The notes under the pieces: generated by a model
Seen by the model: only the letters and a program-made list of their open reading frames with translations
Told to the model about the DNA's origin: nothing
Databases searched by the model: none
Translations under genes and position numbers: made by a program
In this document: piece by piece, positions 6,353 through 61,908 of the stretch
Numbering within the stretch: the stretch's first letter is position 1
Layout: the number at the start of each line of letters is the position of its first letter
Assembly (NCBI GenBank): GCA_036925085.1
Contig: JAUPFP010000015.1
Location: 4,160,426-4,224,425 of the forward strand
Length of the DNA stretch: 64,000 nucleotides
Reading direction: 5' to 3'
From: Brachycybe producta
Lineage: Eukaryota > Arthropoda > Diplopoda > Playtdesmida > Andrognathidae

Positions 6353-6534
6353 TTACATATCACCAAAAATACCAGCAAACGTTTTCCTCAAATTTCGCAT
6401 CGTATCGTCGGGATCTTCAGACTTTGGTGGTTGTCCCTCTCCGTTAACTGTCTGTTCACGTCTTCCGACTCCGAGTGGTGGAGCTCGAGACATTTCCGAA
6501 GATTCCGAATCTCTACGACCCGAAGTTTGCGAAG
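6353..6534 (-). CDS. Syn: Synapsin last coding exon (residues 450-509), domain E
   Basis: After the acceptor TCTCAG the frame reads [18 protein letters not shown], a polar linker, then [18 protein letters not shown] and TAA. The last segment matches domain E of long synapsin isoforms (AETIRSLRKSFASLFSD in mammals), which takes part in vesicle clustering. It therefore fixes the 3' end of the coding region. No single convincing polyadenylation site could be chosen downstream. Confidence 0.93.
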
Positions 6535-18500: not shown

Positions 18501-21500
18501 CAACCAATCAGCGAACTCTCTGACTCATGAGTATGAATAACTCCACCCATTTTGGAAAACTACGTCACACAAACGACGCCAATTTTTTTTTGGTTTAAAA
18601 GAAAGAAAAAAAAACTCCCTGAACCACATTTTCAAAACGATTCAAAAGTAGGCTGGACGTTCAATATTAAATACAGAAGAGAAGAAGAGAGGGAAAAACT
18701 CATTTCTTATTATAAGAAGAAGAAAACAGGACTTTGTCGTCTTGATAAACGAGAAGGAGGCTAGAAAGGAGAAAGAGGGAGGCACCAGTTATAACAACCC
18801 CGGCACCAAATGTTAAAAAAATCCCCACCTTGGAATGAAAATGTTGATGATGGCATTTTTGATGAGATAACAAACTGAAGAGAGAGAATTTAAATCTAAA
18901 GCAAGTTTTAAAGAAGAATTTTAAACTTCAAAAAAAAAAAAGGCCAATAAAAAAAAGCCGGGGTTTTTTTTGGTTTATGGCGGTTGGAATTTCTTTTTTT
19001 ATAATAATACAATTGTATAATATACATTTGTGTTTTCATTCGCCATAAAAGAAAAAAAAGTGTCAGCAATTGTCTTTTATTCTTCTTCTTACTAAAGGAA
19101 CAGAGGAATGTGTTGGTGTTGGTGGTGAATGAACATTGTTGTTTTGTGGGTTTAGTGTTGTCATCTCATCTCATCATTAGAAAGTGAGGTTTTTTTCGCA
19201 AAAGTACAAACTCAGCATCATCTCGTCAGAATTATTATTACGAACAAGGTATGTTTTCCTATCATAATTAATAATTATATAATTATATAAAAAATTACTC
19301 AAGAAACTCAGACTGTGTGGATACATTTAAATCACATGATTTTTTTTTAAATAACTAGGAATGGGATGGGACTATTCGAATCCTCGAATCCCGCGAATCT
19401 TGAAAAATATTCGAGATTCGAAAACTAAAATCTGCGCGCTTTTTTTTTTCCATCTTTTTCGAATCCTAACCTAAAAAAAACTGTTAAAAACTTTGGTAAA
19501 ATTAGTTTGAACTCCATTGACGTCCAATAGAAGCGTTCAATAACGATAAAAAAACCGTCGATTATTGCAATTTCGGTGTTGCACCCGGATCACCTTGTGG
19601 CCTGACCCTGAGTGAAGCCACACTTGTTTTTTTTTATTATTAATAATTTAATATTTAATATTATTTCATTTATTTGTATCTTCTTAATGAATAATATAGG
19701 ATTCTTTTATGAAAGATTCCAGAGATTCGGGAGATTCGAGAACCTTTTAGGATTCGGATTCGAGAAAATTTAGGATTCATCCCACCTCTAACCCAAACAC
19801 CCCCACACCCCAACAATTTGTAACTAAAATTGATAAGTTACAACTATAAGTTGCATATTATTCGGTTTCTAACCTTTTATTATTTTGTTATCTTTGAGAT
19901 AATCAAAGCTAGTTGTAAAACCAGGTCCGCACATTGTAAGATTTTGTTAAATGCGGTCCTCACGGCAACGTTTTGACTGCTCAGTTCAAGACGTTGCGGA
20001 CAAGAAATGTAACAAATCTTGTTTGTTGTTCTGTTCGGCTCCCATCCATCCATCCAATCAGTTGTCGGGTTTTTGTCCGTCAAACTTTTTCACCAAATTC
20101 ATATACCATGCATTTTGTATCCAAACTGTACTACTTAAGATTGGATATTCAATATAAAACTAAAACCATAGCGCGAAAACCATTGAGTTCGTAACCTTGT
20201 CATTATGGTAGGTAAATACTGCCGGCCGCACAGTTAAAAATAGTTTAAAAGTTTACCGTATGACCAAAATTGGAAAAAAAATTACCAAAGCGACCAATTT
20301 TCGACTAAGCCGACCCATTCAACCAAACCGAACAGGCAATTAGAAATCGGGACAAACAGAAGTTGGCTCCGCCCTTTTTATGACGACCGACAACTTCTAA
20401 TTGGTTTGTTGTGTGGTTCGACGTTGAAAAGGGCGGAGCATGTGACGTCAGACTACATAACCAACTAATTAGAAGTTGCCGGTCGTTATAAAAAGGGCGG
20501 AGCCAACTTCTGTTCGTCTCGATTTCTAATTGCCTTTACTGGGAACACGATGCGACCATGTTCTGTTCAAATTTGGACACAATGGCCACAGCGACCAAAA
20601 ACAACAAACATGTTCTTTGAAAACGGTCGCGAACATGTTCTGTTCGGTGTACTACTGTTCTAGTCTGGACCCATCCCAAGAGAGACAGAAAGAGAGAAAA
20701 CAGAGGCACAGCAACATTACCCCAGGTAAACACCAAATACACAAGAATTTAGATCAGAAGAAAGTCAATGAAGAAGACATTGGAGAAAGACTACGGAAAC
20801 ACCATCTCTAGTTGGTGTTTCCGTAGTTTTTCTTGACAATAGACAGGAAAATTATATACTGAATCACTGTGTGGACCATAAAACACACATTACCCTCACT
20901 GAAAATCACACAAAAGAAAAATATGAAAAGCCGAGATATTATTATGATGAAACCATAAACACAAGAAAACAAAAAAGTAAAACAAGAAAAAAATCAGATA
21001 GAAGAACACAAGTGATAAAACTAGACAAACTAAGAGATGTATGTGAGAGAAGACAGGCAAGTAACCCCCATAATAGGCATATATGGCGCACACATAACGG
21101 TGTCCGTGTCGATTTGGTAAAGTAGCTGTCAAGTCAACATGGCGATAATTCCCTCCACCTTCTTTCTTCCCTTGTTTTCCTCCCACCTTTTAAACTGTCA
21201 CAATGTGTGTGTTTCTTGAAATGTTTGTTGTTTTGTTATTATGTGGAACAATAATTGAGAACAAACAACATTTGCATATCTGACATGAAATCGATTCAAT
21301 TACTGAGTAGTAGGCGAATATCATTATGAATAGGAAAAAAAAAAACAGACAGAGAAAAACACGACTAAATTATTATTTAAATGTAAACACACACCTGAAA
21401 TATCTTTTCTTTTTTGGACGGGATTTTAAATATGCAATACTAATGTCAACACAAGTACATGAATGATAACTAGGGTTCGGATTTTCATGCACTATCAAAA

Positions 21501-24500
21501 GTAAAATGTTTCTCAATTTGTTGGCCCCAAGAGCCAATTATGAAGTAACAATCCCCCGTTTATAGAATCAACCAACAATTATTTTTTTCAATCAAAAACA
21601 CTGGTTAGAGGCTAGAACTATCTAGTTGATAAATGATAGTAGCCAGACATCTAGCTAACCTCTAAGCAGTCTTTTTGATTAGAAAAAAAAGCATAATTGC
21701 ATGGTTAGAGGCTAGAGCTGTATAGGCAACAAATGATAGTAATCAGACATCTAGCCTCTACAGCCAACCTTGATTAGAAAAGAAAAAAAAAACATAATTA
21801 CAGTTGTTCTAATGATGATGATGATTACTTCACAATTGGCACTTGAGCCACACAAATTGAGAAACATTTGCTTGATATTTGCATAAAAATCCGAACCCTG
21901 ATGATAACCTAATACCTTGTACACACATAAGTTAAATGAATTCAAATTAAATATGTTTAGGTGGATTATACGGAATCCAGTTAAGGACATGAACACCAAA
22001 TAAAAATTGACTTTATTATTAATATTTTAAAATTGAAATTATATTAATTATATAATTTATATTGAAGTAATTAACTCAATATTTTCAATATTAACTGAAT
22101 AAATTGAATTCGATATATTGTTTGTATGTCCTTCACAGGGCTCTAGAAACACCGTTTATTATTTAAATGCATTTAAATTATGTGGTGTGAGTACTAGGTA
22201 TAACACATAATATTACAAAAACATGAATAACACAAACCAAAAGACAAACGTGTTTTTGTGTTTGATCTCGTTTTTTTTTTTTTAAAAAAAATCCATAAGT
22301 GACGTAAGAAGGGTATTTTTTTAAAGGGGGACATTACTAAATAAGGCTACATAATAACGACATACCGAAACAACAACAACCACCACCTGAACACATGTTT
22401 TTTTTTTCCTTCTAAACATATTTTATATCTTGAATAATATTATTTACACACTCGTTTTTTTTTAACTCTTTTCCCTCCTCTCCCTCCCACTTCCACCTCA
22501 ATTACCTAACTCAAAAGAAAAACACCATCTTTAAATGTATGTCTAGGTTTTATTTATATATTTTTCTGTTGTAATTATTATATCAAACCTGTTTGTTTAT
22601 GTTAAAATTATAAAAGAAAACATTTCAAGTAGTTAAAAAAAAGGTTTACCTTTTTATAATTAAATAAATCGGAGGGAGAAAAAAAAAACATGACATAATT
22701 AACAGCCTATTTATGTATGTACATTATGTGTCTACCTGTATTACACACGTACCTTAACCCTGGCGCACATTGAGACGCAGGAAACAACTTTTACAAGCAT
22801 AGAGGGCAGGCTGGGCACAGCACAGCATAACAAAGAACAACATGCAAGCGTGCCCAGCAACTAAAATTCTGTTTGCCCCGCCCTTTTATGACATCAGACC
22901 AAGTAACAAACCAATTAGAAATTGATGGCGCTCATAAAAAGGCGGGGCAAATGAAATTTTACTGCTGGGAACAACACTTGCCTGTCACAGCAAATCCAGT
23001 ATGTTTTAATACAGAGATGCGCATATTAACAAAACAGGCAGGCCTTCCTTGCGTGCCGCCAATATGCGGATCTGCATTTAAGAATGCAAGTACATCACTT
23101 ATTTTGTTCCTGTATAGCGTTAGATGGCGCCACTAGCCCTCCTCCCATAGAAATGTACTGCAGAAACTCTTCAACTCTTAACTCGCCTTCCTTCCTTTTT
23201 TTTCACGTGGCAAACTTTTAATTACGTCATCGCTATTTCAACACGTGCTCTCTCTTCACTTATATTGTGTTCTGGGTATAAGTTTGTCACGTGCTGATAA
23301 TTAAGGTTGTTTTGGACGCTTTTATTAGCTAAAAGGAGGCTGCATTCTATTTCAACTCATTTGGCATGAGTGTAGTTTGCCACCTATGGAGGGGTTGCAG
23401 GACGCCATCTACCTTGCATTTACACAAGTATTTTTCTATGGAGCCCACTTAAAACGTACTGAATACAAAAATAGAAACAAGGCATAAAGCAGATGATTTT
23501 TTTTTTAATTTTTTGTCTGTAAAAAGTTTATTTTGAAAGATCGCGATCATGAAAATATTCTGAAAATGATTGAGCTAACTTTTCTAGTCTCTAAAACACT
23601 CGCAATTTTGCTCTTCTGAAAGACAAGAATAATCAAAGAGTTCTAACATGAGCTGTTCATAAACAAGCTTAATGGATGTCTTTTCGGAAAAAAAAAAGGT
23701 TGAGAAACACTTTATTTTTCTGTCACAATATTTGTATGTGCGCATGCGTGTTTCTTTTATCTTAAATTCGTGCTCTCATTTTGTCAACATGATGATATTT
23801 GAGACAAATTGATTTTCACTTGACACATTAAACTCATTGAAAACAAATTTGTGCCTCAAAATCAAGGTATTAACTATAATTACAACAATTTAGTAATGTT
23901 TCCATTGGTTAAAACGATGATCCACTTGAGATTGTTTCTTACGTAATAGGTGGGATATGAAATAATAGAAATAGGATTACAAAACCGGAAATGTATTTAT
24001 TTATACATCATTCAATAAGAATGTAATAAACATGCTTAAAACGCAGGTAGAAACAAACAAGGACATAACAACCACTGTTTCTTTATGAGGTGAATTTATC
24101 CTGAAGATTTTTGCAAAAAAAGCCATATATTGTATAAGAGGTTCGATCAGAAAGTTCCCGAACTGGCGCTCTATTCTATTCAATGATATTTCCTTCAAAG
24201 TATAGTATAATAGAACGTCGAGTATCGCAACGCTAGTTATTGGAATCGTCTGTTAATTATCGGAACCGACCGTCGATTATCGGAAACGTCCGAATGGTCT
24301 GGGATCACATGTTTATATACGTGAGCATCAGTGTGCGCACTTCTAAGCTAACTCGTATCGTGAGCAGGGAGATTACTTTAAAGGAGGGGGGGGGGATACC
24401 ATTGAATAGGATTATAGATAAGCCAGTTATTTTTTACAGCACTAGTCAGAGAACTTTTTGATTGATCCTCACTATAAGAAAATATTGTTTATTTATTGTT

Positions 24501-27500
24501 TCTAGTTGTCTGTCGTCACGTATTGGAATTTTTCGAAGATAAAAAAAGCCCACTATAACTAACTATATATACACACGAAAGCCTAAAACATTGAGTAAAA
24601 TTAACCCACCTCTCTTTCTCATCCACCTTTTGACTATTTATGAAATAAACAAAACCATATTTGAAAGCTAGGCATTTTATTTATAAATAATAATAATAAA
24701 AAACAGACGCGTTTTCTTGACGTAATACAAGAATTAACCAAACCAAACGGGATGTCAACGTCTAGGAACCGGTAGAACCGATTCGCTCAATTACTGGAAC
24801 TGATACAACCGGTTCGCCAGTATAGGTCGAACTGATAAGAACCTTGTTCCGAACCGAGTAGAAACGGTTAGGTTCCTACCCTTCGCCATGTATAACTAAT
24901 GTGCTGCGCAAATCTGTTAATGCAAATTGAGACACGGGTTCGAACCGGTTCTCAGTATGCATTAGCAGATTTGCGCAGCACATTAGACTAGTGTGCTGCA
25001 TAAATCTGCTAATACATACTGAGAACCGGTTCGTCAAGATCCATGAACTGATCAGAACCGGTTTCCAAAAAAAAAATCGCGAATCGATTAAACCGGTTAC
25101 AAACCGAGTAGAAACGGTTCGGTTCTACCTGTTGCCCAACCTCTAACCAAGAAACATACGCTTTGGAAATAATTATTTATGTATAGAGGACCTCCACCCC
25201 ATCCGCCCCTTTCGGAATATTTCTTCGTGTTAAAAGAATTTCTGATATTCGAATACCTTTGTCTACACTTCGAAAATCTTTTTCGCGTTAAACGGTTTTC
25301 ACTGTGTGTAAGTAATAATAAATAATAAGAGAGAAAGAAAAACACACCAATTGATGATGATGTTAATAATAAATATGATGAATGGAAAAAACAAGGATGT
25401 GGTTTTTGAATCACACATCCTCTTTTTCTAGTAAATTCAGATGATTTGTTGGCGTTAATGACATTCGAAAACGAGGAGATAATAAATTCCATCATCATCA
25501 TCATCCTTTTTTTTTATACGAGGATTCAAATAATTTAACAAAAAAATTCTTACCCAATTTAAAGCAGTGGAAACCGTTTAACACAAACTTTTGAAAAGAC
25601 TAGAGAATATTGTTTCGTCTTAAGACAGAAAGCAAAATTAAGAGAAACTAGAAAGTGTTTTAAAAACTAGAAGAGTACTTTCAAATCACTTGCGGATATT
25701 TTTCATGTTGGTATCTTTCAAAATAAAACATTTTTTTTTCTAGACAAAAATTAAAAATATGCCATCTGCTGTTTTTTTTTTGAAAATATTTTAATTTGAA
25801 ATATTTTGAATTACTAGTGGCTTATTTTGAAATATATCATCAACACGAAAATACTCATAAGTGATTGAACTACCTTTCTAGTTTTTAAAAACACTTTCTA
25901 ATACAGGCAAGTGTGCTCAGCACAATAAAGTCGTTTGCCCCGCCCTTTTATGAGCGTCAGACCAAATATCAAATAATTAGAAATTGAAAAAGGGCGGGGC
26001 ATGTGACGTCGGACCAAATAACAAACCAATTAGAAGTTGGCATTCCTCATAAAAGGGTGGGGCAAACGACTGTATTGTGCTGAGCATACTTGCCTGTCTT
26101 TCTAATTTATCTTAATTTTGCACCTAGAAGTCACAGGCAAGTGTAGCCAGCACTACCTTTTCGTTTGCTCCGCCCTTTTATGAGCGTCATCAATTTCTAA
26201 TTGGTTTGTTATTTGGTCTTACATCACAGATGCTCTGCCTTTATTAATTTCTAATGGGTTGATAATTTGGTCTGACGCTCATAAAAGGGCGGGGCAAACG
26301 AAAAGCTAGACAGGCAGGTAGAAATAGGTAAGAACTTCAGTTGGCTCCGCCCTTGTTATGACGACCGGCAACTTCTAATTGGTTTGTTGTGTGGTTCGAC
26401 GTTGAAAAGGGCGGAGCATGTGACGTCAGACTACATAACCAGCCAATTAGAAGTTGCCGGTCGTCATAAAAAGGGCGGAGCCAACTGAAGTTCTGGCCGA
26501 TTTCTAACTGCCTGTAAAGCTAGTTCTGACCGATTTCTAACTGCCTGTAAAGCTAGTTCTGACCGATTTCTAACTGCCTGTAAAGCTAGTTCTGACCGAT
26601 TTCTAACTGCCTGTAAAGCTAGTTCTGACCGATTTCTAACTGCCTGTAAAGCTAGTTCTGACCGATTTCTAACTGCCTGTAAAGCTAGTTCTGACCGATT
26701 TCTAACTGCCTGTAAAGCTAGTTCTGGCCGATTTCTAACTGCCTGTAAAGCTAGTTCTGACCGATTTCTAACTGCCTGTAAAGCTAGTTCTGACCGATTT
26801 CTAACTGCCTGTAAAGCTAGTTCTGACCGATTTCTAACTGCCTGTAAAGCTAGTTCTGACCGATTTCTAACTGCCTGTAAAGCTAGTTCTGGCTACACTT
26901 GCCTGTCTATAAGACAGACTTCCAAGCCCTACTGCTGGTTCAGAGCTAGAGAGAGCTCAGAGAGCAGAGAGAAACTCTTACTATGTGAGTGGGGCACTAA
27001 AAATGACAAATTTGCTGACAAACATTTGTACTGATTCGGATTTAAATGAAATTTTAGATCGACAAATTGTTTTTCATGGTTGAAGGTGTGTTACATTTCC
27101 TAAAACAAGATATTTTTTGATTTTTCTTGTCAGTTTTTTTTGGATACTTTTTCGATTTTTATAGTAAATCTTTGGCCTTCTTTTCAAGACCTTTTCGAGT
27201 CTTGGCCCCCTTTTTTATGAAAAAAAAAATGAAAGAACTTTGAACTAATGTAAACTCTTTAAAAAGATAAAATACGTGGCAAGCATAAATTAGAATGATT
27301 TTTGCATTCTTAAGGGTTTTTTAACAGGAAAAAAAATGGGGGAAAAATGGAAAATCATGACAATATATCACTCAGTGTGAGATAAAAAAAAACACACAAT
27401 AGAATTATCTTTTGTTTTCTGTCTTATATCTGAAATCCATTTGAGAGTGATATTCCATTGCCGAAATAAACTTATTATCGTTCACCCTGTACTACTACTA

Positions 27501-30500
27501 TTTTCCATAATATAAAAAAAATATATATAAAATAACAATTGCATAATACAGGCAAGTAAAGACAGGAAATGTAGCTACGCCCCACCCACCCTAAAGGGGT
27601 ATAAGGGCACAAGGCAAGTAAAGACAGTAAGATAGTCGTTTGCCCCGCCCCTTTTATGAGGACCGGCAACTTCTAATTGGTTTTGTTATGGGTTCTGACG
27701 TCACGTGCTCCGCCATTTTCAATTTCCAATTGGTTGATATTTGGTCTGACGCTCATAAAAGGGCGGAGCAAACGACTGTATCCCCCCTGTCTTTACATGC
27801 CTGTTTGCATAATATTTAAGTTTGAATTTGGAGATGTAGGTGTTGTTGTTGTTAACACCTTCTACTATTATACTCTTTTTGTCTTAAAATTTAAATTACA
27901 AATTTGAACAAAAACAAGAAAATGCATCTGAATTTGCACGTCCGACCATGAAATTAAGTTATGTGGTTCGGCCATGATTAGGGCTGCGGATTTTTATGCA
28001 ATATCAACCAGAATGTTTCTCAAAATGTGGCCCAAATGGGGAAAATTGAAGCAACAATCCCCATTTAGATTAACGAACAAATTACTTTTTTTTTTCAATC
28101 AAAACAACTAGTTAGAGGCTAGAATTCTAGCTAATAATTGATATTAGTAACCATGCATCTAGCCTCTAACCAGCCTTATTCGTTAAAAGCATAATTGCAG
28201 TTGCTCTAATACCTACTACACAGTACACACCTGATAATTTAAACAATAAACGGTGTTCTACGGAGCCCTGTGAAGGACAAACAAACAATATATCGTCGAA
28301 TTCAATTTATTCAGTTAATAATCTGAAAATATTGAGTTAATACTTAAATATAATTATATAAACTATTGACATTAAAATATTGATTTAGTATTTCAATTTA
28401 AAATATTAATAATTAAAGTCAATTTTTTATTTGGGTTTCATGTCCTTAACTGGATTCCGTATAATTCACCTAAACACATTTACTTTGAATTCATTTAACT
28501 CATGTGTGTGTACAAGGTATAATGATGATTACTTCACACAATTGACATTTGGGGTCACAAATTGAGAAACATTTGCTTGCAAATCCGAGCCCTAATTATG
28601 ATATTTGCAACCTAACATGCACATTTTTGTTACGAAAATGTTTTCCCAAGTTTTACTGTAGACATTTTAGCTTTTTAACATATGGTTTTTCGCTAAATTG
28701 CGCCAGTTTCTAAAACTTGAAGTAGATGCATGAAATCGTTAATAGCCATCCGATAAATTATGATGTATATTAGGTGTTTATGCAACAAATTGCCAGTAAG
28801 TTGCTCGTTTTGTTGCCTTGTTATGACATGAGACACACACACACTATGTATCTTATACATAATTATCATTAAATTAATAATATGTAGGCCTACATTCTAC
28901 GCAACACACGGAAGAGAAGTTCATGAAGAGAAACAAAATTAAAAGTTGAAAAGGAGGACACAACACAAAAATAAACAAGATGGCAATAAAAAGAGGAGGA
29001 GGAGGAGGTGACCTCCAACATCGATTCATTTCCATTTTCCCATAATCCCATGCAATCCAACGATAATTACTAGAAACTTTAGCACTTTTGAGTTTGAGAA
29101 GAAGAAAACTAAGACAGTGTTTATGAGTCTCAATTAAAAAACAAAATCCCCCGCGGCCTTGAAATTTGAATAAGAAATGATCGTCTTTTAAATAAGCCTT
29201 TTTTATATTCTGTTTCTTCCTCTTCCTTCCTCTCTTTCTATCATATAATAAACAGGCATCTCTGTAGACAGCTTCAGAATTTCCTTGGCTCCGCCCCTTT
29301 TTATGAGCGTCATCCATTTCTATTTGGTTTGTTACTGGGTCTCATGTCACATGCCTCCGCCTTTTTTCAATTTCTAAATGGTTGATATTTGGTCTGCCGC
29401 TCATAAAAAGGGCGGAGCCAAAAAAAAATTCTGAAGCTGTCTACAGATGGCTGTTATAATAATCACTCAACTATCAACCATTTTATTTTACAGTCTCAAA
29501 AAAAAAAAAGGTGAGAGTTAACTCTCAAGTGTAATTGTGACAGGCAATTAGAAAACGGAATGAACAGAAGTTGGCTCCGCCCTTTTTATGACAACCGGCA
29601 ACTTCTAATTTGTTGGTTATGTAGTCTGACGTCACATGCTCCGCCCTTTTCAAACGTCGAACCACACAACAAACCAATTAGAAGTTGCCGGTCGTCATAA
29701 AAAGGGCGGAACCAACTTCTGTCCATCCCGATTTCTAATTGCCTGTGAAATTGTGAATTTAAAAAGGTGGGACAGGTTAAAAGCAAAAAAAAAAAAAAAA
29801 AAGATAAATCAAATATCTTCAACTTCTATCTACGAAAAGGTTAAAACTTGAAAAAACGCAAAAAGAACAAGATTTTTCTTTGCAGAATGTGGTAAACCCC
29901 CCCCCCCCCCCCCCCCTTTCCAAAAAAAAAAAGGTTTACCATCGTCGTAATCAAACAGCAACTATTTGCTTATTGCGTGCAAATTCAATGTTGACTCTCT
30001 TCCCTTCACATAGAAAAAAAAAAAAATTGGTTTACTTTTAACACACAACATGGTCAAGGACATAATCCCACGTGTATTGTACATGACCACGTTCACACAT
30101 ACACTCTGTACTTTCACTCACTCAATCATCGATTCATCATACACATTGTAGTTTTCTATAGTTCTCTCTCTTATTCTGTCTCTCACTCACTCTTCATTCC
30201 ATTGAAATACATCATTTGAACTTATTTTGTGTTGTTCATTTTTCAGTAGCAAGAATCCGAAGAAGATAGAAGAAGACAGAAGGAGGAACTTATTTGTTTT
30301 ATCAACAGCAACATTCAACTAACTTTTTGTGTAGAAAAACAACAACAACAAAAATGTGCGAACTAAGAAGGAGGAGAACGCCGACCACCTCAATTATGTG
30401 TTTAATAATCTTCATCATTTGGATTATTAAAAACAGTGAAAGTTGTTCTTGTAAATTAGAACATCCACAGGGTCATTTTTGTACAGCTGATTATGGTAAG

Positions 30501-33500
30501 TACTAATAATAACAAAATAAATTATAAATACAAATTTAAACGTGGTATATATGGTTCCACCGTCAATCTGCAAAACCACCAAAAACCTGCACTAAGTGTG
30601 AATCTGCAAAATTCACCAACATTTATAGGTGTTTTGAATTGTTGCAGATCCCACTAGCAGTTTTTGGTTGCTTTGCAAGAGGCAATTTGCAGATTGACTC
30701 ATTACGCAGATTGACAACGGAACCATATACAATCCAATTAACCAATCAACAACCTATTAATTATCATTTGTTGTACCAAATGTTTACTTACGTATGAAAT
30801 TATCATTGTTATTATACGTGTAGTAGTTGTGTCAACCTTACAAAATTGTCTATATATCTAGAATTTAGCCTCTAAACAGTCTTTCTCGATAAAGCATAAT
30901 TTTGTTTATAGGAATCAGGAGCTCTTCATATCTTATGATGTCACTCTTTGTGCTTTTATTATTTTATGACTGTCATATTATTCTGTATATATACTAGTTA
31001 ATGGAAGTAATATGACAATCATTGTCTTAATAATACTTTGTAAATTTTATTTTTTTTTTGTGACTTTCTGACAAGGTTATGAGCTAGATATGACAATTTA
31101 CTGTCATATGCCAGTTTTTTTATTTTCTTTCAGTAACGACGCGCATTAGCATTTCAAAGCTAAATTAGGAGGAAACATTTTTTTGCTAACGTTGAAACGT
31201 CATCCAAACGTCACCAGAACGAGATTTGTGAGCCAATAACCCAGACCCTCTAACCCCAACCTCCCTCCCTTCCTTCAAAACCAAGCGTTTACGTAATTAT
31301 GATGACGTAATAATTTGACTTCTGAAATCAGTCAAGTGATAAAAAATTAGATGTCGAACTGAACTCACTCACTCTCTCTCCACCCACCCACCACCACCAC
31401 AAGATCTGATATATCAAACCACTTCTCTCAACACTCGAGTCAACAATATCCATTATGCACACAACATAGGGATTATTATTACCATGATTATTTCCTTAGT
31501 AAATAAAGTGATATGTGACTCAATACTGAGGTGTGAACAAAAACGCCCACACAACCATCAATGACATAAGTCACATAACACCACCACCACCACCACCACC
31601 ACCACGTCACCAGGGATCAGAAATTTCTAACCCGTTGGGCAGCTGCTACCTACAAATTATAATAATATATATGGACACGGGAGGTGACACGTACGAGGCA
31701 CAGGCAATTAGAAAACGGGATGAACATAAGTTGACTCCGCCCCCTTTTATGAGGAACGGCAACTTCTAATTGGTTTGTTGTGTGGTTCGACGTTGAAAAG
31801 GGCGGAGCGTGTGACGTCAGACTACAGAACCAACCAATTAGAAGTTGCCGTTTGTCATAAAAAGGGAGGAGCCAACTTATGTTCGTCCCGTTTTCTAATT
31901 GCCTGTGTAGGAGGCTACCCACCTACCTTTAGTGCATTGACTTTGAATGAAAAGTTTTCTTTTCTCGCAAATGATGTCTATAAAGTACAAAAAAGGTGTG
32001 AAAATTTACACCGAACCACTTTTAGTGGTCGAATTCTACTGCAAAATGAACTCAATCGGCATGTCGACAAAACCGACCACTCGAGTCGACTTTTTTTTTT
32101 TTTTGCAGTTCATTCTCAATAACACCGGGACCATTTTCCAACCACTTAAGGGTGGTCGGTTTTGGAGACAAACCGACTACATTTTACGGTCGCACTTGAA
32201 CATCAAAAAGTAGTTCGTGTGAAAAGGGTTTAAAGGTCCGCTTCATACGAGACACTCTCGTGTCGCAACGTTGTGTCACCACGCAAAATGGTAGACGTCG
32301 CGAATTGCTTTTACATGGACCACCGTTGCTGTCAGTGCATTCGACTATTATGACAGGAGGAAGTAAACGGGATTGTTCGCCACTTGACTTGTGGCCGCCG
32401 AACACTCATTGACACTATGGGGAGAGAAGAAGAAAAAAACCCGGTGGTGTGATGGTGTCTCGTGTAAACACCTCCATGGGAATTACTTGGTCTGCTAAAA
32501 ACGAACACAACTTGTGTCGACACACTTTTTGTATCTCGTGTGAAGCAGACCTAAATGAGGATCACTAAGAATCACTCTCAATGCCTCACTGACGGCAAAC
32601 ACCCATAAACTTCACCTTTTTCCATATGAATTATATGAATGTCTGACAATTGCAGCGTTTTGCAGTTTTCTTGTAGTTTAGTTTTCAAATAAATCACAAC
32701 CAAATAAAGGAACAACAACAAAACCCGCTCTCTTCATGAATCATATGAATTCATTCACAAAAACAAAACCTCCTCATTCATGTTTATTTCAGGCAATAAG
32801 GAGATCGGTGTGAAAATTCCTTGAAAGCAGAATTACCTACGTTTTAAATCTGTCGCTCTATATAATATTATTTTAAACTACAAAGTTTGTTAAAAACTAG
32901 AAAAGGAAAAAAGCCTGCGTCAACTAAACATCTTTCATGGCGATGAAAGCTGAACGGTCCACTCTTCTAGTTTCTAACAAAAACACTTTTCTAGTTTCGC
33001 TTAATTTTGATCCTGAAAAGCCGGGTTTATTCATCAAAAGAGGGAACAATGCGAGCGAGCTCGTGTTTAAAAAAGATCGGATGGATGGCGGTACATCAAA
33101 GAAAAGACTTGTTCGTGTCTTTTGTTTAGTTTGGACGATTATTATTGTATTGTTGAAAAGCTCATACAGATTAGATCATTAGAGATAAATCAACTGCGAA
33201 CAAGAACATATTCGCTCCGGTATGAAAGCAAGGGGAAGAATTTCAAGGGAACACGAGCAAACATTGGCATATTGTAGCACTTGAATCTCAAGATCCCTCT
33301 GCCATAGGCCAGGCCAACCGGTTGCTTGCAGAGTATTTGTTGTAATTATAATTGACATGCTTCAGACATTTTGTCTGAAATGCTTTAGTCAATGTGTCTT
33401 ATTTAGTGTGTGCCCGCCCTAAACACCATGTTAATTAAGAGGTGGGGGACGAATCCTAAAAGGTTCTCGAATCCCTCGAATCTCTCTCGAATCCTATATT

Positions 33501-36500
33501 ATTCATTAAGAAGATACAAATAAATGAAATAATATTAAATATTAAATTATTAATAATGAAAAAAAAAACACAATGTGGCTTCACTCAGGGTCGCCACAAG
33601 GTGATATTGGTGATCCGGGTTGCAACAATCGCCTGTTTCTTTTGTTAGTGAAAGCTTCTATTGGATGTCAATGGAGTTAAAACTAATTTTTACCAAAGTT
33701 TTTAACAGTTTTTTTAGCGCGAAGATTCGAGTTTTCGAATCTCGAATATTTTTCAAGATTCGCGGGATTCGAGGATTCGAATGGCCCATCCCTAATGTTA
33801 ATCAAAACAAAAGCCATTTTGGTGTTTGTGACTAAAATCAAAATAACCCTTTTCCTGCCCAATTGACATTCCTTAGATGAAACCGACTTCAACAAAAAAA
33901 AGGTCGTCACGTATTAAGGTTAATTAAAAATTATACAGTTTCACAACATGTACAACACTTTATTGTATGTCCATCCATCCATCCTCCGTTGGTGTTTCGT
34001 CTAAAATTATTAAACCTATAAATGGTCATATAATTTAGATAAAAGGGACGACGACCGCCAACGCAATCACATTAAATTACATTTTCGTGTGATTCTTACT
34101 TAAATAAGGTCACCATTTAAAACCCATTTGTATCAATTTAAACAATTTGACAAATAAAAACTTTGCATTTCAGAAGGAGCCAACAATAAAGAGAAATTGC
34201 GTTAGAAACTAGAAGGGTAAAGAAATCACATGAATAGTTATTTTCATGTTGGTGTGTCTTTAAAGCATCGTTTACACGACGACACTTTTGTGTCTAGATC
34301 AAGTGTATACACCACTTAAGTGTCTGTGTGTAAACAGCACTCAGACTGGTGCCCTTAGACCAAGTTGCAGTGTCCTCAATCTAGATGCAATTCTGGTGTA
34401 GACAGGCCCTTACTCAAATTCAAAAATACCACAAAGAAACTATTTGAAATTAGAATTTAAGCAGTGAAAGTTTATAATAAAAAAACCGCTTCTTTTCTAT
34501 TTCGTTGTGAACATTTTTTTTAAATTATTATACAAGCAGCTAGCTACAATGGCCGCTAGAATAGCCGAGGGGGGTTCGGACCTTCGTCCATATTTACTGA
34601 TTCACACCCTTAATCTAGCTGCTGAACTCTAGTTGAAGCCTAGAGACATGTAGACAGATGCGACACTTTTTGTTGACACTTGATCTAGACACGGGTGTAC
34701 GACACTGCTCTAGCCTCAAAAATTGCAGTACGTGTAGACAGGAAATAATACTTCGCCCACCCAATAAGGGTATAAGGGCACCTCTCATACCGTACTCTCT
34801 ATACAAACAACACCAAGGAACGGCTGAGAAAACAGCCTGGACCCGCCCAGTTGCGGACCCCTAAGAAGACCCTGGACCTACGGGGAAAAGCCATAGGCAT
34901 AAAAACCCGTATTTATCTACACGACGACTTCAATGTCCTTACAAAATTTCCAAAAGGCTACTATTAGAGGTAGGACTAACTAGATGTTTTTTATCACAGT
35001 ATAGACACTGCTCTAAACACAAGTGTAGCCTCTCTCTTGGTGTCGTCATGTATGCAAGCCTTTAAAGTATGCTCTATGTCTCGCGCTTGCAGTAATTTAA
35101 TTATTAGAGTATGGTGCGTGCAACATGACATAATTAACTTGGCCGAATAAAAGATTAAAAGTCGACATGTCAAGATTTAAAAATCTTTTGTAAAAGTCCT
35201 CTGCAGGGCTCCATAATAAACGACACGTTTTGTCCAAGGTTTGTAGAATATTTACAAACCTCTACAAAACCAAGCGTTTTGTCCTATAAGTGAATGGAGA
35301 AAAACAAAAAAGCTCTTTGGATCAACGCCCACGCAAACAAAATACCAAAAAAAATGGTCGCCAACATTTTTTAAATAACCAAGGGGGAATGTGATTAAAA
35401 AAAAAGAGGGTGGTTTCACACAACATTTTAGGCGGTAATACCCTCCAAAAAGGAGGCGGTTCACACACTTTTTGAGGTGCACCCAAGACTCGCCCCGCGG
35501 TCCTGAGAGTCCTAACCAACAACAACAAAAATCACGACCACGACCAAGAGTGTTTCTCCCCCTCCCCCCCCCCCCCTTCTCCCCACCGAAATAAAAAAAA
35601 ACCGATGGTTTAAAAAGATATCCCTTATTTTTTTTCTTTGGAATTTTCGAGTATTGAGGCGTAGTCCACTCACATACTACATTCATATTCTTGTTTTTGT
35701 GTTATTTCCCCCCTCCCCCTTTTTTCTTTCTATATATTCCCCCCCCCCCCTTTCATATACACCACCAAAAAAAAAGAAGAGAAATCTTTCAAGTTTTATC
35801 ATTCTTTCAACAACAACAAAAAAGTAAACTCCCTTTTTTTTGCCATCCATATTCCCTCACTTTTTTTTTTGTATTGCCTGTTTTTTCACATGTGTGCAAC
35901 TGCAACAACAAAAAACCCCCACCCTTCTTCCCGCCTCAAAACGATTTTTCTCACCATCTTTCTTTCCTTCATGACATTCCATAGAAATTGTACCCATAAT
36001 ACATAAGGTTCCATAGGGTTCTTCTTCTTCCTGTTTTTGTGATAAAATAGATTTTCAGAGATCGAACACCAAAATAGATAAATAATGGATTGACGTCTTC
36101 TTCTTTTGTTGAAAATAACAACAACAGCAGCAGCAAACAAGGACCCAGTGGACTCTCTCCATTGTAGTTACTTGCAACAGAAATGCCAGCCACACACCAT
36201 CTGCAAATGGCAACAAAAAGACCAAATAGCAGATTGCCAGATGGGAAGAAAACACAAAATGTGTTTCAAATTCTTTCAAAAGTTGAAGCTGTACTGAACA
36301 AAACAAATGTCCAGTTTGGATTTGTACAGTTGTTTCCAACTGCATGACAAATCTAAACTTCACAATTGTCAAAACATCGTTCCCAAACAAAAAGCTGAAG
36401 GAAGCTCTCCTTCTTCTCAATTCTTTGGTCAAAAGCGTCAGTCAGTTCAAGACCAAATTCTGAAATTTATTGTAAAGTTTGACCTCCTTGCTCAACTGAA

Positions 36501-39500
36501 GTTGCTTGAATAGAATCATGGGACTACTTCCTATCATCCTTAATGCTGAACATGCTGGACACAAAAATGACAAAACCGGAAATAAGATTTCAAAACAATT
36601 AATGAAATTCAAAAATTCTCAACTAATAGCACATTTTTTAAACGCTATCTCGTTTGACTAGATAGTTGATAGTACTGTCGCGATAGTAACAGTTGTTGTG
36701 TAACCGCTTGTAGGAAAATATCCACTTTGTAGGGAAATTTGGCTTCTGTAGGGAGAGAGATGCAACACTGTTGTTGACTCAATGATACCCTGTGAAGTAG
36801 ACGTCACACTGTCATGTGACAGAACTATCACGTTAATTCAAAGACATGTAGACAGTTGGCTATCTTGAGAGTGAACTATCGCCAACTTTCATGACAGCTA
36901 CTCTCGCGAAAGAACTATCGCCACCGTGAAAACGAGGCTTTAGAGTAATTTGTACACGATGCAGAAAGAATGCTTGAGCCAACATTTAAGAAGAAAACTT
37001 ATTAAGCCAGACTGCATATTTGCTTTATGCAGCTTTAAAGCTAAGCTTTGCATTGCTTTCTTTGTAGACAAACGTGTTTGGTCATCCCCAGTTTAATCTG
37101 TTCTCCATAAGGAAAAATAATTCTAAGTATATCTCCTCTACTACAAAAAACCATAACTTTGGCTCCATGACGTCCACACACAAAAAATTCATTCAAGCTA
37201 TTTATAGGATAAATATGAACGATCATATTTACAAACAAACAAACCAAAAAAAAACAAAAAACCTTTGAGAAATAATTTTTGAAAGACCGTGAGAATCAAT
37301 TGTTTTAGCAATGGACACGGGGGGGGGGGGGGGGGGGGGGGGGGGTTCTATTTTGTTTTTAATATTTTGAACATTTCTGAATAAGTGTTTAAAAAAAGCA
37401 AATGAAATGTTTTTTTGAACTGCGAATGTCGACAGTTCATTCAGAACAATTGTAAGCATAATAAAAACGCTCAATTTGTATGTAAATGAGGAAGTTTAAT
37501 ATGGCTTAACATTCACTAATCCCATCTCTCTCCCTTCCGTCATTCAAAATAAAAAAAAGTTAAGAATTAAAATGAGTGACAAGTTTGACAATGAAACCCC
37601 CCCCCCCCCCCACACAAACATTTCATTTGTCAATTGAAGGTATATTCATGTGTGTGTTTTCTAGTATTTTATGGTCCGTGAACCTAGAACAAGTTCTACT
37701 TAGGATTCTTTGTTGTGAATCTTTTGGAAGCAGAGGTGCGGGGTACCTCTACGGTATTTTATCGCCGTCGCAAAGAAAAGAAACGTCCTTCATCTCAAGA
37801 GAAAACACGCTAAATTGCCACGTGTTTACTTCGTCCGTCTAATTCGTTCTTTGTGGATACCACGTGTTCGAATTGTTGGAGCTATCCTACTAACCATAGG
37901 GATCACAAGGGAACAACAATTTCGTCCACGCGTGTTTATTATGTTTATTTGAGAAGAACAACACATAACCAATTCAGTCCAGTAAAGCTAACCACAAGCT
38001 GCGTTTTTCTCCAAGGCACCCTTAAAACATTGTAAAGAAAATGTAAAAGAAGTCTGTTATTTTACCTTAGTCAGACCTTTATAAGAATATTGTTCCCCAA
38101 TTTGGAGCCCATTTAAAAGTAACTTAAAGCATGAAATAGAAAAGGTACAGCGTAGGGCTGCAAGATTTGTGAAAGGAAGATACCGTGTATACCGACAGTG
38201 TATCGTCTTCTATGCTTCAGGAACTACAATGGGAATCATTAGCAGGCCGAAGAAATGACTAAAGCGTTGCCCTTTTCGGACGTTTACCGACATAATTATG
38301 ATAATAAAATTTACTTTTTTGAATTTATGGGTTTTTATGGTCCTCGGAAGTGTGTTGGGCCCTCCTGAGTTCATTTCAGTACTTTTCAGGCCCCACCCTT
38401 CCCTCCTCAAAAAACACCATTTTTCAAACTAAAATGTTCAGACAGATGCTGCCATACACAACATTCTGGTTTATCTTGTAAAAAAAATCGATATTAACAT
38501 CTAAGAAGGGATTTATAATAAGTTAATAACGTGAAGAGATATGGAAAGAAAAAAGTCTATGTTGTAAAATAAACTTAAATCTGCATAATTCAGAATGACA
38601 TGACAGCTAATAAAGACGGTATTTTTTTCGTAAAAAGAAAAAAAGAAAACCCCCCTTTTCCGAAAACTAATAAACATTTTGACAACGTGTCTGTCTGTGT
38701 CTAGTAGAGATATCTTCTTCATCATCATCATCAGCCAAATCTTGGTTGGGGGTTTTTTTTTTCTTCTTCTTCTCTTTCAAAATGTGTGACAACCACATTC
38801 CTTCAAAATATTATTCATGTTATTACAACACATAACGAATGAATGAATCCGGAAAATCGTCTCCAATTTCAAAAGTTAAACATTCCTTCATGGAATAATA
38901 TTTAACAACAACAAAAACACCAAGGAACAACTGGACCAAAATAAATGAATGGAATTTCAAGAAGAGGCTTTTTAAATATGAGTAATGGAGATTTAATGAA
39001 TGAACAACAAAAAACTGCTTTCAATAAACATTCTTTCTTAAGAAAACTATATTCTTTTTTAAAGAATAAAATTTTAGGCGGCAATTCTTCTTGTTTAGAA
39101 ATCTAATTACAGGTTAAGACATCAAAAAAATTGCTTACAAATTTCTTACTCGTTTTTTTTAGAAAGAGAAAAAAAAAAACGTTTAGGGTGGGTCCAGACT
39201 AGAACAGAACACAGAATAGAACATCCGCTGTGGCCGGAGTATCCAAACTTTAAACAGAACATGTTCGAAAAAGTGTTCCCCCAAGTCGGTAACCTTGGCT
39301 GCTGTCATAACCGCTAATGACTGAATGTTCGGGAGGAAATGTTCGCCGAGATGTCCAAACTACGCCTGAACTGAACATCCTTTGATGTGACTGACAAAAA
39401 CCGACAACTGATGGATCGAGGCCAAATAGAACAACGAACAAAATTTGTTACTGTGAAATGTTTGGAAAACGGTCCACACGCGAACATGTTCACAAACAGT

Positions 39501-42500
39501 GTTCTGTTCGTTGATCTATTCTAGTCTGGAGCCAGAGTAATTGTAATATTGAAAAATGTTTTAATTAAATGATTCAAATTCTATTTCAGGAGCCTGAAAA
39601 GGTCTGTTTTGAATGGAACTTCAGACAGATGGAGAGCTGTAGTTAAAACTACTAGTTTACTCATAACTCCATAATACCTCCTTCGTTTCCACTGCAAACA
39701 TTATCTTCAGTCAAAAAGTTAAATCTTCTTGTTGAAAGAAATGTGGTTGCATTAAACCAAATTATTAAATTTCTGAATAATAAGAGTTAACTCAACTGCT
39801 TTGACACAATGTCATTAATCATATTATTGAATGGTTAAATACGTCACGTGACAACTTGACCAAACCCCCCCCCCCCCCCCCAATGTTACCCACAACCTAA
39901 GTCCTCACAAAATACAAAAACAGTGTTTCGATAACAAATTGGCGACAATTCTAAAACATTTCTACGACTTTTCGGTTTTGTTTGCAATTCTACAAACTAT
40001 TACATGTCCCAGCTCAGATCGGGGAAACATCAAAAAGTTTTTGTTTTGTCTCGTGGTACTACACAACATTCTTATAAAATCTTTTCTGTGCAGTGCAGAC
40101 AGTTAGTATTAAAACAACAGCAGAACAGTTGCGTAGTTTACGTAGGACAACTAGCTACAGAAACAAAAAAATAAATCCCAAATTTGTTCGTGTGTTGTCA
40201 CAAATTTGTTGTGGTTTTGTCTCGAACTCATATTGCACTTTTGTCAGCTTGATGTGGACCTGGCCTTAAACTCCATTTTTTTTTTTCTTCTTACTGTTGT
40301 GTAATGTTTATGCCTCTTGAAAAGTTTTTTTTAAAAAGTATCTTGATATTTAGAAACAAACAAACTGACAAGGCTACTTCATTGTTGTTATTATTATTGT
40401 TAAAAACCAAAACAAAAAAATGTTTTAACCTAATTTCTTATCCCGTTGTGTTTTATTACAATTTTGACAGTGATTGTGGCCAGAATAAAGAATGTCCAGA
40501 AAGATTCAGTAAATGCCAATTACACCATCAAAGTGAACAAAATCTTCAAGGTAATAATAACACCCTTTTTAAGCACCTTTAACCATTTTATATATATTTA
40601 AGGTACATTAGTCACGCATCATCATCATCATCCTCTTCTTACCTCATTTTTACGAGGAAGACAAATGTTAACTGATGTTAACATGAAATGAAAGAAGAAG
40701 AAATTGTAAGATTGTGTCGTTGCTTAGCAACAACATCCTTAAAACCTAAAGTGCTCAGAAAACACATTCTTTCTCTTCCTTCCTTATGTTTTTACTAGAA
40801 GCTTAACGCCTTGTTTCCATTGGGGTGGAAAATTTCAACTGGGGAAAAACAGAACACACGTGACCTTTTGCCTATGATAGTAACTGGGGGCCGCGTTTCT
40901 TCTATTTTTCACCAGTTGAAATTTTCACCGAGTACAAATTGTTACCCCAGTGGAAACAAGACCTAATGATGTAAAGCAATTTGCCTTATAAAGGCGAGTA
41001 TACACAGGGATACACACAACAAAAGTTAATAATTGCATTTTGGTTGTTATTGGGGATGGGACATTCGAATCTTCGAATCCCGCGAATCTTGAAGAATATT
41101 CGAGATTCGAGTCCTCGATTCTTCGCAGTTTTTTCGTCTTTTTCGAATCTTTCGAATCCTAACCTAAAAAAACTGTTAAAAACTTTGGTAAAATTAGTTT
41201 TAAATCAATTGACGTCCAATAGAAGCATTTACTAACAAAAACAAACCGGCGATTGTTGCAATTTCGGTGGCATCCGGATCACCAATATCCCCTTGTTTTT
41301 ATTATTAATAATTTAGTATTTAATATTATTTCATTTATTTGTATCTTTTTAATGAATAATATAGGATTCTTATATTTGAAGGATTCGAAAGATACGAGAA
41401 CCTTTTAGGATTCGGATTCGAGAAAAATTTACGATTCGTCCCACTTCTAGTTGTTATTTAATTTTCCATTTTAGCCTCAATTAGCCTATTATTAATTATC
41501 ACTATTACAGTACTATTATTAATTTTTTTTTCTCCTCCTCATAGAAAACAGAAAAAGCGCAAATTGCACTGCAGCAGAAAACAATTTACAGCCCACTTCA
41601 TTCAATGTTATGTGGTGTCCAATTGGAGAAACGAAAAAGTTACCTTTTGGCAGGTAATTAATTTAAAAATAATATAAATCAAGTCTATCTTAAGCTATAA
41701 ATAAATCCATCCCATAAATCTTATTACGTCCTTGTCAATAAATATAATTATATCTTTCTTTCTTTCTTTCTTTAAAAATGTGGTTCAGGTCGGGTCATCG
41801 AAGGCAAACTACGAATTGTAATCTGCGATTACTACGAAGAGTGGACGAAATTGACCCTCAAACAGAAAAAGGGATTTAAACTTTTGTATGAGAAAGGTTG
41901 CAACTGTCAGGTAAGAATTTCAAATGAAAAACAAAAATGTAAAATAAATTCTGCATTCTGAACCAGATGATTCATTGATTCTTGACAAACTAGATATAGA
42001 AACTAGAAGGGTAGTTTATAGACTAAAGCTCACGAGCCGTTCAAGAACAGTTCGCGAACAGAAACAGAATCCGGTTTAGACGGGAGGTCGCGAACACTTC
42101 TAGATTTGTTAACGAACAGGTAAAAAAGTTCGCTCTTAAGGCGGTACATCAAAGTGTTGGTTCTTGCAAATCTGCCAAACAGAGAGAACACCGGTCTAGA
42201 CATGAGTGAGCTCGTCTAGCCAGTTGATAATTATTACAAACTACTTAACAACGCGAACTTTTGGCGAACTAACAAACAATCTCAAGAGCTGTTCGCCATG
42301 CGAACGCGAACATGCTCAATTTTTTTTGGTGTAGACGCTAGGTGCGTGAGCAGCTCTCGAACAGTTCACGAGCGGTTCGCGAACATCCAATTTTGGTCTA
42401 TTTCCACCTTAAGATCGTTTATAAACAGCTGATTTTCAAACTCTTTATTTTATTTTTCAAGGGACAAAATTAAGAAAAACTAGAAAGTGTTTTTGAAACT

Positions 42501-45500
42501 AGAACGGCAGATTCAATCACTTAAGGGTATCGTTTAAAATAATCTTTATAAGAGACAAAAATTAAAAAAATGTCGGTTTACCTTAAAGTTGGATTATTTT
42601 CAAGTCGACATGAAAAATTTATTTTGAATGACGTCAACACGAAAATACCCTTAAGTGTTTGAGTTACCCTTCTAGTTTCTAAAACACATTTAAAGTTTCT
42701 CTTCATTTTGCATTTGAAAGACAAAATAATTAAGAGTTCGCGAGGCGTTTTTACACTTTAAAACCACCTTAAGGGTACTTTAACGTTGATATCTTTCAAA
42801 ATAAAATTTTTTATATTCGAAAATTTATTTAAAAAAATATCGTTTGCTTAAAAAGTTGGTTCATTTTCAAACTGATACATTTTGAAAGAGATATCACTAT
42901 GAAAATACTCTTAAGTGATTGAGTTACCCTTCTAGTTTCTTAAACACATTCAAAGTTTCTCTTTATTTTGCACCTGAAAGACAGAATTAATCAAAGAGTT
43001 CGAGAACCACGTTAACATAACCTGTTTCTGTATTAACCAGATAACTCCGTGTCCTTGGTGGAATCGAAGGCACTGTTTGACTATGAACGAATCAAAGTGT
43101 GTTTGGGAAACGTTACACGAGGGTGAATTCGACTGCCAGGGATTATCGTCCGTGTGTATGAAACAGAGCCACGGAAAATGTGGATGGAACTACAGTCAAA
43201 AGTATCGACATTGCATGAAACTGAGAAAGGAACACAAAGAGAAGATGCGAGCCTTGGAACCTTAGAGAGAAGGGATCGAGAGAAAAATGCAAGAAGAAAA
43301 AAAAAAACCTCGAGAAGTTTTAAAGTTTCGTTGGTGCCAAATACAGCCATCTTTTGTTTTGTTTTCTAGTTTGATGTTTTTTCTGTCTTTTCTCTGAAAC
43401 GCACTTTTTAAAGCAATCTCTAATCTCCTTTTATTTGTTTTATATGTTGTATAATTAATTATAAAACTGTATTATAAAGCAAAATTTTCATTTGTAGAAG
43501 CTCCGCGCATTCGAAAACAACAACAAAACAAAAAGTTCCGTAGTAAGTTATGTGAATCTTAGAAGAAGTTAATCTTATTTCTCTCTTTTCTTTTCTGTCT
43601 GTACATATTAAATATCCTCGTATAATAATTATAAGTACAAAAAAAAACCTGTTAGTTTGTTCGTGTGAGCGTGTGTTGTATGTGTGTATAAGTGATGAAG
43701 GCGTACAAAAATGAATTATACAACGTAATCTCGTAATAATATTTTTACCTGTTATATTTTTTGTTTGTGCCAAAATGTTTTTTTTCTTTACCTTTTTTTT
43801 TGTTTGTTTTTGTTTCTTAATTCATATAGATGTTTGTAATTGTGTTATTATCAGCAGTTATATATAAAGTTTATATAATAAGTTTTTAAGTCGTACATAC
43901 ATAACATATTATATTTTGAATTTTGCAGCGTTGAATAAAAAAACCGATTACGAATCGAATGCGCCAAGGATCTAAATCTTGTTCTATTTATTATCACCTT
44001 TTTTTTAAACATGCTTTAAACCTGATTTGGGTTTATGAGTTGGGTTTAGAGATTAAAAGAGGTTGAACCCTGAAAAAGCATGGAACATGGTGGTAAAACG
44101 GGATATGGAAACCGTTTAACATGGAATGGAAGAGACCGGAATATTTTTTCGTGTTATATTTTTTGTGCCAAAATGTTTTTTTTTCTCCTTTACCTTTTTT
44201 TTGTTTGTTTTTCCTGTTATTCTGTAAATTAGATAACCTCTTAATTCATATAGATGTTTGTAATTGTGTTATTATCAGCAGTTACCCAGAAAAAGCATGG
44301 AACATGGTGGTAAACGGGATATGGAAACCGTTTAACGTGGAATGGAAGAGACCGGAATATTTTTTTTTGTGTTAAAAGAAACAATGTTCATACTTTTCTA
44401 AGGGACCGAACCAAAATATACTTCAGGTATTAAGTATTTTTTGTGTTATCCATTTTCGTGTTTACACTGTATGCATCTTTAAGTTTCTTCTAATAAGTTG
44501 CTTTAAAATACCGTTCAACCTGTTTTCCAACACTGTAAACCTAAATGTTTGCTGCCTGAAACAGGTTTTTTAAGTATTCAAAATCGGTTCTTTGCAGAAT
44601 CGTATCAAAACTTTTCAAAACTTGAATGGGTAAAAATAAAAAATCTGTAGAAACCTCACGAAAGTATAAAAAAAAATGAACCAACTCACCATTTCGTTGT
44701 GATTCGGATAATAATACTGATCAATAAGAGGAAAGTTCTCTTTTCCGAGACGTCTCTGGATCTGAATCAACTGCGAAAACTAAAAGAAAAAACACGAAAA
44801 AGTTTCTTTTGAAACAGGAGAGATGTATGAAAAGCCGCCACGAGGTCTCGATTCTATATTTCGATACCCGGATCTCAAAATGTTTCTTTTATTAACCAGG
44901 TACGTACCACCCAAGGTTTATCCTGAAAGTTGTACATACTATACAACGAATTGACACTCGCAATTCCACCATATTTAAAACCCAACAATAAGTTTCTGTA
45001 ATCTTCGTTAGCATTTCTTATATGTTGACGGATTAAAAGAAAATCCGGTTTAAAAGACCTGCTCAGAAGAAAAAAAAACAAAAAACAGAAACAAAAAAAT
45101 GAGATCCTCACTTGCTTGTTTGTTTTTCTGTCTTACGAACTTTACTGACCGTACGACTCGAGTACTGTTACGATAAACAGCCATTCCGACAGTCGTTCCG
45201 TATTCGGACGAGGAAGTCAAATTGATTTCTCTAAATTCTGCCTAAAAAAAGAACAAAAAATTATAATTCTGAACGATTTTGTGATTTGGAGTCGATTGTC
45301 TTTACTTGTTCGACTCGAATGTCCCAATCTCCGTGAATTCGTTTTCCACGAAAATACTTCGACCTTTAAAAATAGAAAACAATTGATTTTTTTAGTTCTA
45401 GTCTCGCTACAAACTTTAGGGATGCCCGATTTCGATACGATAAAACGGACAATAGATTTTCTACTTCCGATTAATCGTATAAATTGAATCGACTCAAAGC

Positions 45501-47176: not shown

Positions 47177-47424
47177 GTTTGATGTGAAAGACTGACGAAA
47201 ATTTGAGAACGAAATTTTGGCGGTTGGGTGTGGAGACTTCTCGAGATCAGTGGTGGGTGGTGAACGTTAATTTCAAACCGATCGCTATTGGTTCGATGAT
47301 TAATTCGATTAAACGAAATTGATCGGTTTAATCGTGACGTAACTTTTGTCGAAGTGTTTCGATCGAAACAGAAACCGAATGCCTCACGTTGTCTTTCGTG
47401 AACACTGAACATTCAGCAGGAAAC
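47177..47424 (-). other. Syn: Probable synapsin 5' untranslated part of coding exon 1
   Basis: Upstream of the synapsin ATG there is no close core promoter. At 47425 the minus strand has a pyrimidine run and AATGTAG, a good splice acceptor, so the first coding exon probably starts at 47424 and is joined to a non-coding exon further upstream (candidate at 61588). The reading frame through this stretch is out of phase with the ATG, consistent with untranslated sequence. Confidence 0.45.
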
Positions 47425-48043: not shown

Positions 48044-48191
48044 CGAAAATGTAATTGGTTGGTTATGTAGTTTGACGTCACATGCTCCGCCCTTTTCAAC
48101 GTCGAACCACACAACAAACCAATTAGAAGTTGCCGGTCGTCATAAAAAGGGCGGAGCCAACTGAAGTTCTCCCCGATTTCTAAATGCCTGT
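48044..48191. mobile_element. Foldback MITE, right three quarters
   Basis: Starts within the central region (GTAATTGGTTGGTTATGTAG, TGACGTCA) and ends CCGATTTCTAAATGCCTGT; the left arm is missing. Confidence 0.82.
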
Positions 48192-50348: not shown

Positions 50349-50390
<42 letters not shown>

Positions 50391-50883: not shown

Positions 50884-50888
50884 TTAAA

Positions 50889-61830: not shown

Positions 61831-61843
61831 ATATAAAAATGGG

Positions 61844-61872
61844 TTAAAAAATCCGCTCTTCGAGAGCGGAAC

Positions 61873-61908
<36 letters not shown>

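Follow-up and report, generated by a model that had tools for sequence, protein, structure and literature searches.

Introduction

In several animals the gene for a TIMP, a secreted metalloproteinase inhibitor, lies inside the gene for synapsin, a neuronal synaptic-vesicle protein. A TIMP lying inside synapsin and running the opposite way has been reported for human, amphioxus, Ciona, sea urchin, Capitella, Drosophila and Nematostella (PMC2825198; this and the other sources are cited from part of their text). The same account describes the location of the nested gene as conserved, counts five exons in the nested TIMPs of mammals, and, in the part cited, has the nested gene missing in nematodes and un-nested TIMPs occurring in human, amphioxus and Nematostella. 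The human TIMPs sit in intron 5 of the synapsin genes, all four of them according to PMC1867822, with TIMP2 independent according to PMC2825198; mammalian synapsin intron 5 as a TIMP host is also the subject of a reference title in PMC2599898. The Syn-Timp pair is one of only two overlapping pairs retained from fly to human (PMC2330155). Here we describe the synapsin-TIMP locus of the millipede Brachycybe producta, found in a stretch of 64,000 nucleotides (assembly GCA_036925085.1, contig JAUPFP010000015.1, positions 4,160,426 to 4,224,425), hereafter the window, whose own numbering is used throughout.

An earlier note on this DNA took the nesting to be established in vertebrates and Drosophila. 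The cited parts of the literature bear this out, for mammalian intron 5 (PMC1867822, PMC2599898) and for Drosophila (PMC2825198), and take the arrangement deeper than was claimed, to Nematostella. The arrangement itself is not new, having been described in animals as distant as sea anemones and humans; Brachycybe is one more animal retaining it, and knowledge of the arrangement is unchanged by this locus. What Brachycybe adds is a further animal to the record of one such pair, among the few nested gene pairs known to have lasted from cnidarians to humans; its synapsin and its TIMP both appear to be single. With a pair as simple as this, one could test directly whether selection maintains an ancient nesting or whether the inner gene has had no way out. 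Judged by title or abstract opening, none of the literature matches listed was a chelicerate study of the pair, which is not proof that none exists.

A TIMP gene within the fifth coding intron of synapsin

The entire TIMP gene, on the plus strand, lies within the fifth coding intron of synapsin, which is on the minus strand, so that the two genes are in opposite orientation. Both gene models were built by hand from genomic DNA, with splice signals, phase and family similarity setting the boundaries. The TIMP model has five coding exons encoding 245 residues, and the synapsin model ten coding exons encoding 506 residues; there are no internal stops in either, and GT-AG splice sites bound four of four and nine of nine introns, respectively. 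The earlier note had placed a complete TIMP on the opposite strand between synapsin exons 5 (ending PNHNEM) and 6, and the two rebuilt genes, with GT-AG at 13/13 introns, agree with it. The intron of 33.7 kb that it described measures 33,690 bp between these exons, compared with 64 to 1808 bp for the remaining eight synapsin introns, and the junction of exon 5 with exon 6 joins phase 0 to phase 0. The features of the two genes are as follows.

46839..47176, minus strand: synapsin coding exon 1, with start codon, N terminus MNYLRRR
45306..45363, minus strand: synapsin coding exon 2
45150..45241, minus strand: synapsin coding exon 3
44908..45058, minus strand: synapsin coding exon 4
44690..44770, minus strand: synapsin coding exon 5, ending ..YYYPNHNEM at 44690, donor gtgagt
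11000..44689, minus strand: synapsin coding intron 5, 33,690 bp, containing the entire TIMP gene
10794..10999, minus strand: synapsin coding exon 6, beginning at 10999, acceptor ggtgtag
10031..10208, minus strand: synapsin coding exon 7
9838..9947, minus strand: synapsin coding exon 8, its donor (gtttgt) less secure than any other boundary
8343..8467, minus strand: synapsin coding exon 9
6353..6534, minus strand: synapsin coding exon 10, including the stop codon
30354..30495, plus strand: TIMP coding exon 1, with start codon, putative signal peptide and mature N terminus, aligned to residue 1 of TIMP-3, TIMP-2 and TIMP-1
40471..40550, plus strand: TIMP coding exon 2
41545..41653, plus strand: TIMP coding exon 3
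41789..41910, plus strand: TIMP coding exon 4, the sole genome-wide match to the TIMP family profile
42981..43265, plus strand: TIMP coding exon 5, including the stop codon

Within the intron, 19,354 bp separate synapsin exon 6 from the start of TIMP, and 1,424 bp separate the end of TIMP from synapsin exon 5. Of the range 30354..44779 first assigned to the nesting, the lower end is exactly the TIMP ATG; the upper end is the upstream edge of the exon 5 open frame, the exon itself running from 44770 to 44690, and the far edge of the host intron, at 10999, falls outside the range.

The identity of both products is clear. The TIMP protein matches the Pfam family TIMP at 7.5e-34 (117.6 bits against a curated cut-off of 23.1) and NTR at 1.1e-12, and in a search of solved structures all 15 matches were to TIMP-1, -2 or -3 (best 9.2e-19). 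The synapsin protein matches Synapsin_C (PF02750) at 1e-98 and Synapsin (PF02078) at 4.1e-48, showing that the N-terminal and ATP-binding domains are present, and its four matches among solved structures were all to synapsins (I, II and 3; best 9.9e-134). Because of the strength of the TIMP and Synapsin_C matches, together with those to solved structures, the resemblance of the locus to known pairs is not a matter of chance.

The comparison with described loci is close. In the nested loci SYN1/TIMP1, SYN2/TIMP4 and SYN3/TIMP3, and in those of Drosophila, Capitella and Nematostella, the cited accounts likewise place the entire TIMP, reversed, in one synapsin intron; the mammalian loci share with Brachycybe the five TIMP coding exons and the fifth intron as host. 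Exons 6 and 7 of synapsin are separate here, as in mammals, whereas in Ciona, Drosophila and Nematostella they are reported as a single exon (PMC2825198). The Brachycybe locus contains one TIMP, compared with two in Ciona and ten in sea urchin according to the sources cited.

The boundary of the host intron may be the same as the human one. That this locus is the ancestral animal synapsin-TIMP nested pair is almost certain, and to the explanation as a whole, an ancestral nested locus retained with two intact genes, we assign a probability of about 0.93.

An arrangement of this kind could in principle be created by an assembly that joined a TIMP and a synapsin from different places, and the intron is indeed long and repeat-bearing, with the locus judged from the assembly rather than from reads. 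Such an artefact is extremely improbable, however: both genes are intact on one contig of 4.8 Mb, and the arrangement matches that described, in the cited part of PMC2825198, for other phyla.

The TIMP gene and its product

The N-terminal inhibitory domain is the part of the protein held in common with TIMP-3, TIMP-2 and TIMP-1, with which it shares the Cys-Ser/Thr-Cys start and six aligned cysteines; in the alignment to TIMP-3, the Cys-Ser-Cys that opens the mature protein falls at residue 1 and all six cysteines of the N-domain have their counterparts. Exon 1, which encodes this start, was recovered at 9.6e-5 in a genome search with the TIMP's own protein. It contains a second in-frame ATG at 30396. 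Exon 5 has an alternative in-frame acceptor that would begin the exon at 43005 and make the protein 8 residues shorter. A segment at 34264-34398 was the first candidate for exon 3 and was dropped since the candidate at 41545 was better.

By comparison with TIMP-3, -2 and -1, the C-terminal domain is divergent. Vertebrate TIMPs have six cysteines after the N-domain; Brachycybe TIMP has ten, and up to 12 residues are inserted ahead of its C-terminal domain. With the full protein as query, the Pfam TIMP match reaches no further than profile position 138 of 183, and no Pfam family is matched by the exon 5 open frame on its own. These two results weigh against a complete TIMP, although the match of an early model that lacked exon 2 reached position 183 of 183. 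The divergent C-terminal domain, its ten cysteines and the unmatched exon 5 frame are also what a decayed or non-functional relic stranded in the intron might display. We nevertheless consider a relic very improbable, given five exons that are in frame, free of stops and flanked by GT-AG splice sites, the retention of a putative signal peptide, Cys1 and the six N-domain cysteines, and the status of this gene as the sole TIMP found in the genome. An intronless retrocopy is ruled out by the four introns. As a member of its family, the protein would be expected to be expressed and secreted, and to inhibit metalloproteinases.

The synapsin host gene

Alignments with rat synapsin I, synapsin II and human synapsin 3 start at residue 2 and span the entire central ATP-binding C domain; in the case of rat synapsin I the A domain is also aligned from residue 2. 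The 84 residues that start at FPLIDQ and run through to the last one of exon 6 align gap-free with rat synapsin I, and 57 of them are identical. Relative to rat synapsin, exon 5 is 3 residues and exon 4 is 2 residues shorter in Brachycybe, and the low-complexity middle and C-terminal regions are short. The C-terminal end presumably resembles the E domain.

Copy number

The genome (295 Mb in 442 contigs) was searched exon by exon, with only the best candidates scored; single copy here means that no second copy was found, and divergent copies could escape. The TIMP family profile gave three scored candidates and one match, exon 4 of the nested TIMP, while the TIMP protein, at E values up to 1, gave four candidates and five matches, which were the five exons of the nested gene. 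A search with Synapsin_C gave six candidates, with three matches that were all exons of the synapsin at the nested locus. No second copy of TIMP or synapsin was found in the 295-Mb genome among the candidates scored. The possibility of several TIMPs within the intron, as in Ciona and sea urchin, was considered, and none was found by family or protein search.

Persistence of the nesting

Synapsin and TIMP occupy the same DNA, and each should give rise to its own mRNA: TIMP would be transcribed from a promoter within the intron, and the synapsin mRNA would be made by splicing out the 33.7-kb intron together with TIMP. A gene inside a needed intron should be hard to move, as it would have to be copied elsewhere and then lost. 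We infer that the nesting is probably kept in this passive manner, by mechanical lock-in, and not by selection on the nesting itself. In the cited part of PMC2825198, un-nested TIMPs exist and nematodes lack a nested one, so a TIMP is able to work away from synapsin, or to disappear. In flies, deleting synapsin alone reproduced no timp phenotype among those studied (PMC4725958, as far as cited), an observation that argues mildly against functional coupling and for passive retention.

The literature cited also holds three points that count against passive retention. Most overlapping pairs lose their overlap though both genes survive (PMC2330155), Syn-Timp is one of only two to have kept it from fly to human (PMC2330155), and the authors of PMC2825198 argue for a strong stabilising pressure. 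Selection on the nesting, with synapsin and TIMP coupled by head-on transcription or by enhancers within their common intron so that separation would be harmful, would draw on the rarity of such retention just noted and on the great age of the pair (PMC2825198). It would also be consistent with the enrichment of nested antiparallel pairs among overlaps retained between human and mouse (79/152; PMC2330155, in the part cited) and with the head-on course of the Brachycybe genes. The window, however, holds no regulatory evidence for it; the fly deletion speaks against it, as do the un-nested TIMPs that work in several animals and the nematodes without a nested one. A 2026 study in which nested genes were no likelier than un-nested genes to diverge in expression (PMC13343718, as far as cited) is neutral to weakly unfavourable. 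On balance selection on the nesting appears unlikely, and passive retention is the likelier of the two.

Because the start codons of TIMP and synapsin are 16.8 kb apart and the genes are transcribed head-on, a promoter common to both is unlikely. The earlier note had read the retention of the pair as suggesting constraint, for example shared regulation. The deep conservation behind this suggestion is real; there is no sign here of selection on the arrangement, with the fly synapsin-only deletion lacking timp phenotypes and a shared promoter unlikely, and one genome is insufficient to demonstrate such selection. A more specific and rather improbable proposal is a switch in cis, whereby head-on transcription of one gene would repress the other and so help to keep synapsin expression neuronal and TIMP expression non-neuronal, with the pair kept for that reason. 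If true, it would account for retention since before the cnidarian-bilaterian split.

Repeats in the intron and the window

Repeat cover, which is a lower bound throughout, was measured by comparison with 200 kb of genomic sequence, taken as 20 10-kb samples on 19 other contigs. At least 29% of synapsin intron 5 as a whole is repeat: 38% at 11000-30353, 15% in TIMP intron 1 and 0% at 43266-44689. In a comparison of the window with itself and with certain other loci, 28% of the intron was repeat. Outside the synapsin gene, cover is 11% at 1-6352 and 16% at 47177-64000, with 3% and 9% in two 10-kb flanks. The genome samples have a mean of 18% (standard deviation 15%, range 0 to 53%), and the repeat content of the intron is above the genome mean yet well within the genome spread. 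None of 10 open frames, picked by hand out of a larger set, had a Pfam match, to a transposon protein or otherwise; synapsin intron 5 supplied seven of them (the TIMP exon 5 frame and six others), intron 1 two and intron 9 one. The content observed in the intron is short repeats without a detected protein, and its description in the earlier note as saturated with transposons was overstated.

A palindromic (foldback) repeat of 204-207 bp has nine copies in the window, eight near-full and one truncated, each near-full copy matching its own reverse complement at 78-83% identity. They lie at

14503-14708
20332-20535
26310-26515
29540-29746
31700-31906
48052-48192 (truncated)
49097-49302
56785-56988
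60140-60345

A first look at the whole genome gave 2007 candidates for this repeat, 40 of which were scored. It looks like a non-autonomous element of the miniature inverted-repeat transposable element type. A tandem repeat of 33 bp at 26489-26891 (12.2 copies, 99% match) overlaps the end of the copy at 26310-26515, as if it had grown from that copy. Upstream of synapsin, long GA/CT-rich tandem arrays at 58381-59380 and 60542-60938 give rise to long spurious open frames. Scans of the 64-kb window for Rfam families and for tRNAs each gave 0 matches.

Mitochondrial DNA

Contig C442 (15,359 bp) is the mitochondrial genome, in which 13 protein genes were named by eye from open frames. The genes nad4L-nad4-nad5 are on the strand of cox1 and nad1 is on the opposite strand; cox1 and cox2 abut at a tRNA-free junction. 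Among the tRNAs called by ARAGORN are K-D between cox2 and atp8 and A-R-N-S1-E after nad3, with three further calls doubtful. Rfam gave 0 matches on this contig, and position is the sole basis for the presumed rRNAs. A position beside nad1 is general for the two leucine tRNAs in chelicerates and myriapods (PMC2194727, as far as cited). In Brachycybe the two are apart, the Leu(UUR) tRNA adjoining the presumed rRNA region, and other parts are rearranged. By its mitochondrial gene order, the animal is likely to be an arthropod that does not belong to Pancrustacea. An inverted duplicate of 380 bp, at 4633-5012 and 10733-11110 (96.6%), may be a doubled control region. Copies of mitochondrial DNA are also present in the nucleus: one on contig C1 (locus 12695916-12700253) extends over 4326 bp at 98.8% and is possibly longer, as it reaches the edge of the locus, and two on contig C17 align over 2856 positions (97.7%) and 1732 positions (97.5%).

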